A stretch of DNA of 36,140 nucleotides from Acidimicrobiaceae bacterium. Its GTDB lineage: Bacteria > Actinomycetota > Acidimicrobiia > Acidimicrobiales > RAAP-2. Numbering within the stretch: the first letter of the stretch is position 1; each line of letters begins with the position of its first letter. The notes beneath the pieces are model-generated. The model had not been told where the DNA came from and made no database searches. It worked only from the letters and a program-made list of their open reading frames with translations. Where the stretch lies: the NCBI GenBank assembly GCA_947447225.1, contig CANFJV010000001.1, forward strand, positions 65,471 to 101,610, written 5' to 3'. This document shows positions 22,151-30,099 of the stretch, piece by piece. The position numbers were made by a program, and so were the translations under genes.

Positions 22151-22975
22151 ATGGAGCCAATTCCAGTCATCATTCACCTAGGACCGCTGTCGGTTCACAC
22201 CTCTGGCATTGGCCTTGCCCTCACGTTTGCCTTCGCTGCCCACTACTTCACGAAACGGCTCGACCAAGCGCAGCTTCCAACTGACTGGGTGACGACCTTC
22301 GTCATCAAAATCGTTCTTGCTGCACTCATTGGTGCTCGCGCCATGCATGTTCTGGCCAATGTCGACTACTACCGAGATCATCTCGGTGAGATCTTCTCCA
22401 TTTGGCATGGAGGGCTCTCCAGCTTTGGCGGGCTGCTGATTGCGGTTCCTTTCGGTCTCCTCTCCGCCAGAAAAGCCTGTCCGGAACTTTCGACGCTTCG
22501 AGGCCTCGACCTCGTCGTCCCTGTACTGCTCGCTTCTTGGGCGGTCGGACGAGTCCTTGGACCACAGCTCATGATTGCCGGGGGTGGCCACCCTTCCACC
22601 GCATGGTTTGCCATGCACTACGCCGGACAAGTAGGTGGCCGAGTTCCCGTTCCACTCATCCAAGCAGCCGAAGACGCGCTGGCCTTTGGTGTCGCGATTG
22701 TCCTTGAACGTCGCCTCAAAAAAAGCGATCTCGCCCAGCGAACTGGCACCCACCCCGCAGGTGCGGTAACGGCACTTTCCATGGTGCTATGGGGAATAAG
22801 CCGGAGTGTGGATGAGTATTACCTGCTCGAAGGCGGAGCCAATATTGGCTCCGCCCTCGTAATTACGGCAGGATGTTTCCTCATTGTTGGCGGCGTGATC
22901 TTGGCCTTTTTTACAAGACGACGCTGGAACCGCGCACGCGTTGCGCTACTCCATGAGGATGCTGAAACGAACTAA
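22151..22975 (+). CDS. Lgt-like membrane protein lacking key catalytic residues
   Basis: A 274-residue, about seven-helix membrane protein of the prolipoprotein diacylglyceryl transferase family. The family pattern GARAMHVLANVDYYRDHLGEI...WHGGLSSFGG is clear. However the signature G-R-x-x-N-F-x-N-x-E of Lgt reads VGRVLGPQLMIAGGG: the essential Asn (N146 in E. coli) is Gly and Glu151 is Ile, while Arg134, Gly145 and the R-x3-E pair (Arg218, Glu222, in SRSVDEYY) remain. The His of SFHGG is also changed (SSFGG). It may be a paralogue with another activity. The stop overlaps that of the convergent SDR gene by four bases. Confidence 0.75.
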   Translation: MEPIPVIIHLGPLSVHTSGIGLALTFAFAAHYFTKRLDQAQLPTDWVTTFVIKIVLAALIGARAMHVLANVDYYRDHLGEIFSIWHGGLSSFGGLLIAVPFGLLSARKACPELSTLRGLDLVVPVLLASWAVGRVLGPQLMIAGGGHPSTAWFAMHYAGQVGGRVPVPLIQAAEDALAFGVAIVLERRLKKSDLAQRTGTHPAGAVTALSMVLWGISRSVDEYYLLEGGANIGSALVITAGCFLIVGGVILAFFTRRRWNRARVALLHEDAETN

Positions 22976-23880
22976 GCGTTTGGCTTCTCCTTGGCCGCTG
23001 CGGCCAAACGGTATTCCTCAAGCTTGTCAATGATGCCGAGGCGCTCAACGCCAACTTCACCATCGATCCGTGCGGCAATCTCTTCTGGCGTCCAACGTTC
23101 TTCGGCGAACATTGAGCGAACTTCAACCGGCTGGTTCCACACCGAGATGCGCTTGTCGACGACGGTGTACACCTGGCCAGTGATGTGCTTGGCCTTGTCT
23201 GACAACAAGTACACGACCATTGGCGCAATGTCTTCTGGGTCGCCCATTTCGGCGAGATCCATTGGCACATTGGCCGACATGCGAGTGCGAGCAACTGGGG
23301 CAATGGCATTCGAGGTGATGTTGTAGCGATACAGACCAGCTGCCGCTGAACGCACGAGCGAGACAATGCCACCTTTGGCAGCGGCGTAGTTGGCTTGGGC
23401 AACAGAGCCAGCAAAGGCTCCAGAGGTAAAGCCAATGAGGGCTCCGCCGCCTTCTTGCTTGCGCATCACAGCCGCAGCATTGCGGAACAAGGTGAAGTGG
23501 CCCTTTAAGTGGACAGCAATGACCGCATCCCACTCGTCTTCTGCCATGTTGAACAACATGCGCTCACGCAAAATGCCAGCCACGCACACGACGCCGTCAA
23601 TGCGACCCCACTGAGCAACCGCAGCCTCGACTACATGGCTGCCACCTTCCATGGTGGACACGTCATCAGCAACCGCAATCGCTTCGCCGCCACCAGCAAT
23701 AATCTCTGCGACGACCGCATCGGCAACCGCCGACGAAGGGTCTTCGCCGGCCATGCCGACGCCATAGTCAGCAACAACGACCTTGCCACCTTCAGCGGCA
23801 ACGGCAAGTGCAATTGCCCGACCAATTCCATTACCGGCGCCGGTAATTGCGACGACCTTGCCTTCGAGGAAGTTCCCCAT
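22972..23880 (-). CDS. Short-chain dehydrogenase/reductase, hydroxyacyl-CoA dehydrogenase-like
   Basis: A 302-residue SDR. The NAD-binding motif TGAGNGIGR is at about residues 14-22, CVAG replaces the NNAG motif, and the catalytic Ser and Tyr-x3-Lys are in GFTSGAFAGSVAQANYAAAKGG. The sequence resembles the SDR domain of peroxisomal-type multifunctional 3-hydroxyacyl-CoA dehydrogenases and mycobacterial SDRs of lipid catabolism. ATG 23880 has AAGGAG nine bases upstream. A KstR-like box lies 61 bases upstream, in the region shared with the divergent acyl-CoA ligase, so both are probably controlled together. Confidence 0.85.
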   Translation of the reverse strand: MGNFLEGKVVAITGAGNGIGRAIALAVAAEGGKVVVADYGVGMAGEDPSSAVADAVVAEIIAGGGEAIAVADDVSTMEGGSHVVEAAVAQWGRIDGVVCVAGILRERMLFNMAEDEWDAVIAVHLKGHFTLFRNAAAVMRKQEGGGALIGFTSGAFAGSVAQANYAAAKGGIVSLVRSAAAGLYRYNITSNAIAPVARTRMSANVPMDLAEMGDPEDIAPMVVYLLSDKAKHITGQVYTVVDKRISVWNQPVEVRSMFAEERWTPEEIAARIDGEVGVERLGIIDKLEEYRLAAAAKEKPNA

Positions 23881-23940: not shown

Positions 23941-23954
23941 TAGAACCTGTTCTA
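23941..23954. promoter_or_regulatory. KstR-like operator in SDR/acyl-CoA ligase promoter region
   Basis: TAGAACCTGTTCTA is a perfect 6-2-6 palindrome and matches the published KstR consensus TnnAACnnGTTnnA at every fixed position. KstR is the TetR-type repressor of sterol catabolism in mycobacteria and rhodococci. It lies between the divergent starts at 23880 and 24001, where binding would block both promoters. Confidence 0.75.
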
Positions 23955-24000: not shown

Positions 24001-25554
24001 ATGGGCGATCTTGGATTTTGGGCACTAGCGCAACAAGAGCCAGAACACTTGGCACTCGTGACGCCTGATGGAGAAGAGCTGACGGCAGGAACCTTGCTCG
24101 GCCGGGCCAACCAAGTCGTCCACGCGCTTCGTGGTTTTGGGCTGAAGCCAGGCGATGTCGTCGCCACCTTGCTGCCAAACAGTGTGGAATACCTCGAGAT
24201 TTACTTGGCCTGTTTGCAAGCGGGCTGGTACCTCGTGCCGATCAATCACCACTTGGTTGGACCAGAGGTTGGCTACATCGTTGGTGACTCTGGCGCCAAG
24301 GTCTTCATTGCTCACGAGCGGTTCGAAGACGCCGCCCTCATCGCTGCAGAAGAAGCAGAAATTGCTTCGAGCACCTGCTTGTCTGTTGGCGAGATCATTG
24401 GTTTTAACGACTACACCAGACTTCGCAATAACCAACCAACCACGCTGCCCGAAGACCGAACCTTGGGCGACGTCATGAACTACACCTCGGGCACGACTGG
24501 TAAGCCAAAGGGCGTCTACCGCAAGTTGCTCGGCGTCACCCCAGAACAAGGCGCACTCGCTTTGGTCGGAATCTTGTTCTTGTTCGGCGTTCAGCCGCAA
24601 GACGACAACGTGCACATCATTGGCTCGCCGCTGTACCACACTGCCGTAACTCGTTTTGGTGGTGCGTCTATCCACATGGGCCACACCATTGTCCTCATGG
24701 ACAAGTGGACTCCAGAGAAGATGCTGCAACTCATTGAGCAGTACAACGTGACAACCAGTCACATGGTTCCAACGCAATTCCACCGACTCTTGGAACTCGA
24801 TGAAGCCACAAGGGCAAAGTACGACGTGTCGAGTCTTCGCCACATGATTCACGCCGCGGCGCCGTGTCCTGTTGACACCAAGCGCAAGATGATCGAATGG
24901 TGGGGCGACTCCATTGATGAGTACTACGCCGCATCAGAAGGCGGCGGTTCTGTGGTCAACGCCAAAGAGTGGATGCAAAAGCCAGGAACGGTCGGTAAGG
25001 CATGGCCGAACTCAGAACTTGCGATCTTTGACGATGAGGGGAATCGCTTGGAAACCCCAGGTGCAATTGGCACGGTCTACATGGCCATGGCGAACTCCTC
25101 TTTTGAGTACCACAAGGACAAAGAAAAGACCGAGAAGAACCGCGTTGGCAACTTCTTCACCGTTGGTGACATTGGCTACTTGGACGAAGACGGTTTCTTA
25201 TTTTTGTGTGACCGCAAGTCCGACATGATCATCTCTGGTGGCGCCAACATCTACCCGGCGGAAATTGAAGCGGTGATGCAAGGCCACCCAAAGATCTATG
25301 ACGTCGCGGTCTTTGGCATCCCAGATGAAGACTGGGGCGAGCGCGTCCACGCCGTCGTCCAGCCAGCCGAAGGCATTGTTGGCGATGCAGCGCTGCGCGA
25401 CGAATTGCTTGCCTACTGCGCCGACAAGTTGGCCAAGTTCAAGACACCAAAGGCAATTGACTTCAAGGCCGAACTCCCCCGCGACGAATCAGGCAAGCTC
25501 TACAAGCGAAAGCTCCGTGACCCATTCTGGGAAGGTCGCGAGAAGGCCATCTAA
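24001..25554 (+). CDS. Acyl-CoA synthetase (AMP-binding, FadD type)
   Basis: A 517-residue ligase that activates a carboxylic acid to its CoA thioester via acyl-adenylate. The P-loop-like motif YTSGTTGKPKG is at residues 161-171. The later blocks EYYAASEGGG, GDIGYLDEDGFLFLCDRKSDMIISGGANIYPAEIE and the C-terminal lysine region DESGKLYKRKLRD are complete. Its length and the EYYAASEG motif resemble the FadD4/FadD17-like mycobacterial ligases used on lipid or steroid acids; the substrate is not certain. Downstream the SRPBCC gene starts at the stop (TAATG). The KstR-like box at 23941 supports a sterol or related substrate. Confidence 0.9.
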   Translation: MGDLGFWALAQQEPEHLALVTPDGEELTAGTLLGRANQVVHALRGFGLKPGDVVATLLPNSVEYLEIYLACLQAGWYLVPINHHLVGPEVGYIVGDSGAKVFIAHERFEDAALIAAEEAEIASSTCLSVGEIIGFNDYTRLRNNQPTTLPEDRTLGDVMNYTSGTTGKPKGVYRKLLGVTPEQGALALVGILFLFGVQPQDDNVHIIGSPLYHTAVTRFGGASIHMGHTIVLMDKWTPEKMLQLIEQYNVTTSHMVPTQFHRLLELDEATRAKYDVSSLRHMIHAAAPCPVDTKRKMIEWWGDSIDEYYAASEGGGSVVNAKEWMQKPGTVGKAWPNSELAIFDDEGNRLETPGAIGTVYMAMANSSFEYHKDKEKTEKNRVGNFFTVGDIGYLDEDGFLFLCDRKSDMIISGGANIYPAEIEAVMQGHPKIYDVAVFGIPDEDWGERVHAVVQPAEGIVGDAALRDELLAYCADKLAKFKTPKAIDFKAELPRDESGKLYKRKLRDPFWEGREKAI

Positions 25555-25991
25555 TGGCGACCAAAGCCCGTAGCTTCACGATCACCGCGGAAACTACTGC
25601 CTCAACCGATCACGTCTTTGCGTTGATCGCTGACGCCACGACGTGGACCACATGGACACCCATTCGCTCCGTCGAGCGCGCCAACTTGGCTCCCGATGGG
25701 ACCGAACAAGTTGGGACACTTCGAAGTTTTCACATAGGTGTCGGCAAGTCTTTGGAAGAAGTAACTGGACTTTTTCCTGGCAAGCGCATCACCTACTCGC
25801 TTCGAAAGGGAATGCCCATCTCCAACCACGTGGCCTCGATTGAACTTGAGCCGCGTGAGTCTGGATGTGTCATCACTTGGTACGAAGGCTTTACGCCAGC
25901 CATTGCCGGCACAGGAGCCTTCTTTGCGTGGTTTCTCCATGCCTTTATTGCCAAGTGCATGGACGGACTGGTCAAAAAAGCTGAGGCTTAA
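25554..25991 (+). CDS. SRPBCC (polyketide cyclase/START-like) protein
   Basis: A 145-residue protein of the SRPBCC helix-grip fold, which binds hydrophobic ligands. The pattern is typical: an opening strand SFTITAETTAST, DHVFALIADATTWTTWTP, central antiparallel strands and a long C-terminal helix AWFLHAFIAKCMDGLVKKAEA. Its ATG overlaps the ligase stop by one base, so translation is coupled and a role linked to the ligase product is likely. The activity cannot be predicted. Its stop overlaps that of the convergent thioesterase by four bases. Confidence 0.75.
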   Translation: MATKARSFTITAETTASTDHVFALIADATTWTTWTPIRSVERANLAPDGTEQVGTLRSFHIGVGKSLEEVTGLFPGKRITYSLRKGMPISNHVASIELEPRESGCVITWYEGFTPAIAGTGAFFAWFLHAFIAKCMDGLVKKAEA

Positions 25992-26752
25992 CCTTCGGCG
26001 TCTTCTGGACGAAGACCATTATGGGCTCGACCATCGACATAGCTTGCGAGTTCTTCGTCGAGAACCCCACCGCCAACATTTGCTGCATTGCTTGCCACAA
26101 TGCCAAGCATCTGTGCTGGTGGCACTTCAATAAAGAGCCCCTCAGCGCGAGCGGTCACCACGCCGCCATATGAAATGGTGGCAATGGTGGTGATCTTTCG
26201 TCCTTCTTGGCGGATGAAGCGAGCTTCAAGATCGAGATCTGTCAACAACGGTGTGGGCTTTTCATAACGAACCGTCAACGTTCCCGTCATGCCAGCATGG
26301 CCAGAGATGATGTTGGCATTGCCAAGGAGCTCATCAAACAGCAATGACACCACTCCACCGTGCACACAGGTTGGTGGACCCTCATAGGCAAGTGGGACAT
26401 TGGCGAGACCACGAATAATGGGCTGGCCATCATCAGTGGTATCTGCCCAGTAGCGAACTGGCACCGAAAGTGGGTTGGCGTGCCCAGCCATTGGCGAGGT
26501 CCAGAAATAGTCCTGTGGGTGACCTTCTGCCACTGGGTGGCCACGTGGGCGACGACCCGGTGCAGCTGCAGCATCGAGCACTGGGGCCAAATCTTCGAGG
26601 ACTTGGGCGGCCTTTGCCAGTGCTTCGTCATCAATGAGACGACCAACACTCAAGTCGATGAGTACTCGTATCGCTGCGGCGAACCGATTTTGTGCCGATG
26701 GCCGTACTGACAGTGGCTCTTCATCTCGGCCCGCGGCCGGAGTCATGGTCAT
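25988..26752 (-). CDS. PaaI-type hotdog thioesterase
   Basis: A 254-residue protein. The C-terminal ~150 residues form a hotdog domain with the PaaI/YiiD-type block PPTCVHGGVVSLLFDELLGNAN, which contains the His and Asp/Glu used for thioester hydrolysis, and GTLTVRYEKPTPL after it. The first ~90 residues are an extension of unknown role. It starts with an ATGA overlap on the stop of the upstream enoyl-CoA hydratase and is the third gene of the thiolase operon. A job in releasing CoA or hydrolysing dead-end acyl-CoA during lipid breakdown is inferred. Confidence 0.8.
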   Translation of the reverse strand: MTMTPAAGRDEEPLSVRPSAQNRFAAAIRVLIDLSVGRLIDDEALAKAAQVLEDLAPVLDAAAAPGRRPRGHPVAEGHPQDYFWTSPMAGHANPLSVPVRYWADTTDDGQPIIRGLANVPLAYEGPPTCVHGGVVSLLFDELLGNANIISGHAGMTGTLTVRYEKPTPLLTDLDLEARFIRQEGRKITTIATISYGGVVTARAEGLFIEVPPAQMLGIVASNAANVGGGVLDEELASYVDGRAHNGLRPEDAEG

Positions 26753-27546
26753 TGCTTTTTAAAGTTCGGCTTGCGCTTTTCTGCGAATGCCAACATGCCT
26801 TCCTTGGAGTCTTCCGTCGCAAAAATCGGCCAGCCGAAGTCGAGTTCAGCGGCAAGACCATCGACTTCGCTCAATCCTTCAGAGTGCGTCACTGAGGCCA
26901 GGACTGCTTCAACCGAAAGCGGGGCATTTGCCGCAATCATCTCGGCCAATTCCATCGCCTTTGCCAATGCGGAGCCATCAGGCACGACGTGACCAATGAG
27001 CCCGACGTCTTTTGCCTCTTGAGCCGAGACATGGCGGCCAGTCAGCAGCATGTCCATCGCCACCGTGTACGGGATCTGACGACGAAGTCGCACGGTCGAA
27101 CCGCCAAGGGGGAACAAACCTCTTGCCACTTCAGTCACGCCGAACACAGCGGACTCGCCAGCCACACGGATGTGCGTTGCCTGGAGAATTTCCGTACCAC
27201 CAGCCAACGCAAACCCTTCGACTGCGGCGATAAGTGGCTTTTTCAGGCTGTAGTGACGAAGGAGCGCCTTCCAGTGCAGGTCGGGGTCTTCAGCCATCCG
27301 CTGCTGATAGATCGCATCTTCAGGGTTGTCAGAACGCTTGAGGTCCATTCCTGAACAAAACGTGCCACCAGCACCGGTCAAAATCGCGCAGCGAATGTCA
27401 TCGTTGGTGTCGATTTCCGTCCATGCATCAACCATTCCGACCAGCATCGGGACGCTCAACGCGTTCTTCTTCTCCGGACGATTCATCGTCACGATGGCGA
27501 CACTGCCGACGACGTCAAAAGTGAGATTCTCGGTACCAATTGCCAT
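26749..27546 (-). CDS. Enoyl-CoA hydratase (crotonase family)
   Basis: A 265-residue crotonase that hydrates 2-enoyl-CoA. It has the oxyanion blocks TFCSGMDLK and VEGFALAGGTEIL, with Glu in GGTEIL and a second acidic residue in GVTEVARGLFPLGG, the two catalytic glutamate positions of enoyl-CoA hydratase. The start ATG 27546 gives MAIGTENLTFDVVGSVAIV; a longer frame to 27636 would overlap the thiolase gene. It begins four bases after the thiolase stop and overlaps the thioesterase gene, so the three form one operon (thiolase, hydratase, thioesterase). Confidence 0.88.
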   Translation of the reverse strand: MAIGTENLTFDVVGSVAIVTMNRPEKKNALSVPMLVGMVDAWTEIDTNDDIRCAILTGAGGTFCSGMDLKRSDNPEDAIYQQRMAEDPDLHWKALLRHYSLKKPLIAAVEGFALAGGTEILQATHIRVAGESAVFGVTEVARGLFPLGGSTVRLRRQIPYTVAMDMLLTGRHVSAQEAKDVGLIGHVVPDGSALAKAMELAEMIAANAPLSVEAVLASVTHSEGLSEVDGLAAELDFGWPIFATEDSKEGMLAFAEKRKPNFKKQ

Positions 27547-27550
27547 GAGA

Positions 27551-30099
<2,549 letters not shown>

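Follow-up and report, generated by a model that had tools for sequence, protein, structure and literature searches.

A predicted KstR-type operator between divergent lipid-catabolism genes of an aquatic Acidimicrobiaceae bacterium

KstR and sterol catabolism

In mycobacteria, KstR switches the breakdown of cholesterol on and off. Regulation by KstR is already known (PMC1995591, PMC3068626), and the closest described system is the mycobacterial KstR regulon (Rv3574 / MSMEG_6042), in which a TetR regulator uses the operator TAGAAC(N2)GTTCTA at intergenic sites between divergent lipid genes. The mycobacterial regulator is autoregulated, its targets include fadA5, echA19, igr-type genes and a steroid C26-hydroxylase P450, and KstR shifts the Rv3520c/Rv3521 site of M. 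tuberculosis in vitro in gel-shift assays (PMC1995591). Two other systems enter the comparison: the KstR2 regulon, concerned with HIP and ring C/D degradation, and the degraders of the 9,10-seco pathway covered by genome surveys (PMC4810484, PMC5790920), in which the side chain is removed by a P450 and beta-oxidation. The main text of either survey makes no mention of Acidimicrobiia, and a search for KstR together with Acidimicrobi-, covering part of the literature, found no report.

The locus described here shares with the mycobacterial regulon its operator, its intergenic sites between divergent lipid genes, a homologous TetR protein and the targets just named, and with the seco-pathway degraders the same route of side-chain removal. 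The regulatory system is a known one, met here in a new lineage and somewhat rewired.

The operator and its neighbourhood

The window, that is, the whole stretch of 36,140 nt that was analysed, comes from a small, uncultured, aquatic bacterium. Its relevant features are as follows.

22972..23880, minus strand: SDR-family dehydrogenase, related to MFE-2 / 17beta-HSD4 hydroxyacyl-CoA dehydrogenases
23941..23954, no strand: KstR-type operator TAGAACCTGTTCTA, perfect inverted repeat TAGAAC-CT-GTTCTA
24001..25554, plus strand: FadD-type acyl-CoA ligase; top family match NF038341 FadD4, 448 bits, below the cut-off of 850
25554..25991, plus strand: SRPBCC / polyketide_cyc2 protein (PF10604, 8e-18)
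25988..26752, minus strand: conserved protein of 254 aa, encoded after echA19; resembles hot-dog thioesterases by eye only
26749..27546, minus strand: EchA19-like enoyl-CoA hydratase, next gene after fadA5; inferred start
27551..28723, minus strand: FadA5-type steroid 3-ketoacyl-CoA thiolase; GTG start at 28723 inferred
28756..28769, no strand: second KstR-type palindrome GAGAACGTGTTCTC, 32 nt ahead of the fadA5 start codon

The original prediction placed a perfect KstR consensus box between divergent SDR and acyl-CoA ligase genes, and this description is exact. The 14-bp palindrome TAGAAC(N2)GTTCTA, with its core TnnAACnnGTTnnA, is matched at every position at 23941-23954, inside a 120-nt gap, 60 nt from the SDR ATG at 23880 on the minus strand and 46 nt from the ligase ATG at 24001 on the plus strand. 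All 14 letters are identical to those of the KstR-bound Rv3520c/Rv3521 site of M. tuberculosis (PMC1995591). Within the window TAGAACCTGTTCTA is the sole match to TNNAACNNGTTNNA, with 0.43 expected from shuffling. A scan of the intergenic region for sigma-70-type promoters gave no match.

Whether the motif simply occurs at chance frequency in non-lipid genes, a concern raised with the original prediction, depends on how it is defined. Pattern searches of the 2.04-Mb assembly, which is 91% complete, found 20 sites for the loose consensus TnnAACnnGTTnnA, and base composition alone predicts about 16; its frequency is thus at chance genome-wide, and a match to it alone is weak evidence. In contrast, there are two copies of the full inverted repeat TAGAACnnGTTCTA where 0.06 is expected (P ~0.002), and across the family the full box lies upstream of lipid genes, mostly those for the sterol side chain.

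The SDR scores 259 bits against NF005861, below the cut-off of 373, and its top PDB match is the (3R)-hydroxyacyl-CoA dehydrogenase 2et6 (8e-71). For the ligase, a search of solved structures gave no match at the threshold set and a search for plasmid relatives gave no informative annotation; its orthologues are syntenic with the SDR, echA19 and fadA5 genes. The start of the SRPBCC gene overlaps the ligase stop and the two are probably co-transcribed, the SRPBCC protein being poorly conserved among relatives.

The second palindrome lies some 5 kb to the right of the first. GAGAACGTGTTCTC retains the core and inner positions and has both outermost bases changed, giving two mismatches to the palindrome; in most family members the full TAGAACnnGTTCTA is found upstream of fadA5. 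The FadA5-type protein scores 653 bits against NF005889 (steroid 3-ketoacyl-CoA thiolase, cut-off 515) and has PDB matches to FadA5 structures at 2e-156, the next family following at 3e-71. The hydratase falls below the cut-off for EchA19 (NF051848, 359 bits, cut-off 400) and exceeds that for NF005864 (390 bits, cut-off 316). The 254-aa protein has no match in NCBIfam or Pfam, and is syntenic across the family together with the SDR, ligase, EchA19 and FadA5 genes. As judged from these homologies, the predicted ligase, hydratase, hydroxyacyl-CoA-dehydrogenase-type SDR and thiolase together cover most steps of a single round of beta-oxidation.

Conservation of the operator

Ligase orthologues with genomes come mostly from MAGs of Acidimicrobiaceae or Acidimicrobiales, recovered from lake, bog and palsa sites. 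For the 36 with at least 70% identity and enough upstream DNA, the 250 nt before the start were scanned. All 36 have a site upstream of the ligase that departs from the palindrome at no more than one of its 12 positions, at distances of 10-217 nt from the start; random windows of 250 nt drawn from these loci show such agreement in about 1% of cases. Retention of the motif while its spacing drifts gives it the look of an operator. The box is intergenic, upstream of lipid-catabolism genes and conserved between species, and among remoter ligase homologues, in Catenulispora, Actinosynnema, Nonomuraea and Streptosporangiaceae MAGs, recognisable boxes are often kept.

The KstR homologue and its association with the box

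A KstR-family TetR protein, which the original prediction had proposed to look for, is encoded on the minus strand of contig 38 (L017:1114-1698). It is the one clear KstR homologue among the 17 TetR genes of the genome, exceeding the others as a KstR match by 80 bits. Its best PDB matches are M. tuberculosis KstR (1.1e-30, 36% identity over 183 residues), with an unrelated TetR family next at 8.7e-9. The protein has a TetR N-terminal domain with a KstR-like DNA-binding helix region and a KstR-type C-terminal domain, TetR_C_20. Against the NCBIfam KstR equivalog NF033703 it scores 150 bits, short of the cut-off of 280, the next best family reaching 44 bits; it is therefore named here a KstR homologue predicted to work like KstR, rather than a member of the equivalog.

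The gene is unlinked to the regulon genes and no box accompanies it in this genome (locus L051), so that the autoregulation known from mycobacteria, by a box at the promoter of the regulator gene, is not seen. Among kstR loci of the family the box is close to the gene in 2 of 30.

Co-occurrence was scored in 120 genomes of the family, 36 of which have the KstR homologue and 38 the full palindrome. Both are found in 33 genomes and neither in 79; three have the homologue only and five the box only (Fisher P 8e-21). Because the genomes are related, the count by genus is the fairer one: nine genera have both, ten neither, and one and one have a single partner (P 3e-4). In one genus both states occur, box and homologue switching together (G002 without, G022 with). 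Four of the five box-only genomes are assemblies estimated to be 64-89% complete. Since the full inverted repeat is conserved in relatives and its presence goes with that of a KstR homologue, it stands well above chance, and the 14-mer between the two fat-degradation genes is almost certainly a genuine binding site for a relative of KstR. The original suggestion of KstR-type control in an acidimicrobial genome thereby gains good support from a homologue at 1e-30 to KstR and from a full box that is both conserved and above chance, although the control itself is predicted from these comparisons.

The predicted regulon

The 120 genomes contain 66 full palindromes, the majority of them upstream of sterol side-chain genes. 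Behind them are fadA5 (28), the SDR/ligase pair (15), other acyl-CoA dehydrogenases (8), the igr-type operon (2), whiB/GDPD-etf (2), ribD (2) and a nitronate-monooxygenase-type gene (1); among palindromes first left unassigned, three lie upstream of a lumazine-synthase-like (ribH) gene, its protein read by eye.

In the genome studied here, contig 77 carries TAGAACCTGTTACA upstream of an operon for an acyl-CoA dehydrogenase, a ChsH2-like protein, a second acyl-CoA dehydrogenase, a ChsH1-like protein and Ltp2 (4e-177), a set of genes that matches the mycobacterial igr operon; the gene diverging from it encodes an F420 enzyme of the Rv3520c family. On contig 48, TAGAACACGTTGTT lies about 70 nt upstream of a CYP142-type steroid C26-monooxygenase gene (1e-126). 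The boxes at fadA5, CYP142 and the igr-type operon each have two mismatches to the palindrome. The only other full TAGAACnnGTTCTA of the genome is on contig 28 (L046:10290-10303), between whiB and GDPD-etfB-etfA, an arrangement found likewise in a congener (G049, L191).

Contig 12 (L251:13902-18709) encodes an SDR-echA20-ipdA-ipdB-ipdC-like series of genes for degrading steroid rings C and D (IpdB match 3.5e-79) that resembles the mycobacterial KstR2-controlled one; no KstR box is found there. The KstR2 site is ANCAAGNNCTTGNT, and this motif has no good match near the ipd run. Contig 114 (L253:616-3551) has two tandem genes for FAD proteins, again with no KstR box nearby, whose nearest solved relative is the 3-ketosteroid delta4-(5alpha)-dehydrogenase 4at0. 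In light of FadA5, EchA19, CYP142, the igr-type operon and IpdB, the pathway is assigned to sterols; the boxes accompany the side-chain genes fadA5, echA19, the C26-P450 and the igr-type operon.

The ring A/B genes fared otherwise. Rings A and B are opened by KshA and HsaC, which work ahead of the ipdAB-type steps of rings C and D. Of the ring-degradation genes sought following the original prediction (kshA, hsaC and kstD), KshA (PF19298) was not found in this 91% complete genome or in four congeners. HsaC (TIGR03213) gave only a weak half-length match in this genome, to a protein far from HsaC in the PDB, and no match above the cut-off in the four congeners. A canonical delta1-KstD was rejected, the PF00890 matches being the two tandem contig 114 proteins, which are closest to the delta4-(5alpha)-dehydrogenase. 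Elsewhere in the family a strong KshA match occurs in 9 of the 36 KstR-positive genomes and in none of the KstR-negative ones, and no KstR box is near KshA in those nine.

A further gene group deserves mention. On contig 73 (L252:5890-9004) a TetR gene adjoins genes for a glyoxalase/extradiol-dioxygenase-type protein, an SDR and an FAD monooxygenase, and a dioxygenase match related to the contig 73 protein is present in three congeners. These may possibly be unrecognised ring-opening enzymes or belong to an unrelated aromatic pathway.

Proposed mechanism and alternatives

The box, the regulator homologue, their conservation and co-occurrence, and target genes identified by homology are matters of observation, and the reading that we regard as very likely is that the 14-mer is an operator for the contig-38 KstR-like repressor, through which sterol side-chain genes are induced as a set. 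A repressor dimer bound to the inverted repeat would shut off the SDR and FadD promoters, which diverge on either side of it. As mycobacterial KstR is released by a sterol-derived acyl-CoA, of the 3-oxocholestenoyl-CoA type, a ligand of this kind would likewise release the repressor here. The same protein would act at fadA5-echA19, at CYP142 on contig 48, at the igr-type operon on contig 77 and at whiB / GDPD-etfBA on contig 28, so that the genes for beta-oxidation of the sterol side chain would be induced together and growth on sterols could follow.

That the 14-mer is a palindrome arisen by chance and without function would accord with the chance-level frequency of the loose consensus (20 sites against about 16), but retention of the box in 36 of 36 orthologues despite its shifting position, and its association with KstR across 120 genomes, make this scarcely credible, and for the full box the comparative data led to its rejection. 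A conserved operator might instead be bound by a different TetR protein, the KstR homologue travelling with the gene set for another reason. The 17 TetR genes, the homologue's lack of linkage to the regulon and of a box of its own, and the five genomes with a box and no detected homologue would all fit; this is nevertheless very improbable, since the homologue has the KstR-like helix region and no other TetR protein of the genome comes near, and box presence tracks the homologue across the family, four of the five exceptions being incomplete assemblies.

More weight, though the reading is still unlikely, attaches to a real operator and a real KstR homologue serving the degradation of a lipid other than a sterol: a different acyl-CoA, polycyclic or of the branched isoprenoid type, for instance the side chain of a bile acid or hopanoid. 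Failure to detect KshA and HsaC in five of five genomes of the genus, the strong KshA match in only a quarter of KstR-positive family genomes (9/36), and FadD and KstR scores below the curated cut-offs are in its favour. Against it, the CYP142-type steroid C26-monooxygenase, a FadA5 above the steroid-thiolase cut-off and Ltp2/ChsH2, and likewise the relatives of 3-ketosteroid delta4-(5alpha)-dehydrogenase and IpdB, indicate steroids that carry an alkyl side chain.

Departures from the mycobacterial regulon

Compared with the mycobacterial regulon, the regulator here is unlinked and has no box of its own, there are few boxes per genome, kshA and hsaC were not found, and etfBA (in relatives, riboflavin genes) stands behind boxes. 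The lack of autoregulation, the non-detection of KshA and HsaC and the drawing in of flavin and electron-transfer genes are leads toward a variant, not proof of one. Our tentative reading, for which the odds are somewhat against, is that small-genome Acidimicrobiales have a rewired, non-autoregulated KstR-type sterol regulon that couples side-chain removal to flavin and electron-transfer supply (etfBA; in relatives ribD or ribH), with KshA and HsaC missing. If so, either the cells export partly degraded steroids or unrecognised enzymes open the A and B rings, and enzymes of the latter kind would feed the encoded ipdAB-type ring C/D pathway.

Freshwater is rich in sterols of algal and other eukaryotic origin, and the combination of KstR box, KstR, FadA5, CYP142 and igr-type operon predicts sterol turnover by widespread uncultured actinobacteria. 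With KshA and HsaC undetected in the genus, surveys keyed on these two proteins, as genome surveys of steroid degraders have been, would miss it; the box and fadA5 may serve as markers for finding sterol-degrading Acidimicrobiia.

Related arrangements in other genomes

Full palindromes of relatives lie upstream of ribD in two genomes (L189 and L269, box at 1501) and of ribH in three (L262, L263 and L264, box at 1501). Sterol catabolism uses many FAD enzymes, and the supply of flavin may be coupled to it.

The nearest plasmid relative of the SDR, at 66% identity, is encoded on the conjugative plasmid plas2 of Prescottella equi (L291:3522-8712), where genes for a P450, a thiolase, an SDR and an enoyl-CoA hydratase follow one another, apparently as a mobile module for lipid or steroid side chains. 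In two Myxococcota MAGs a TnnAACnnGTTnnA site is found upstream of a ligase homologue (TAGAACGCGTTGCA and TAGAACATGTTTCA), the box lying 116 nt before the ligase start in L097 and 44 nt in L101 (MAGs Kofleriaceae; Myxococcales UBA2376); these sites could reflect transfer of the regulated unit, or chance.
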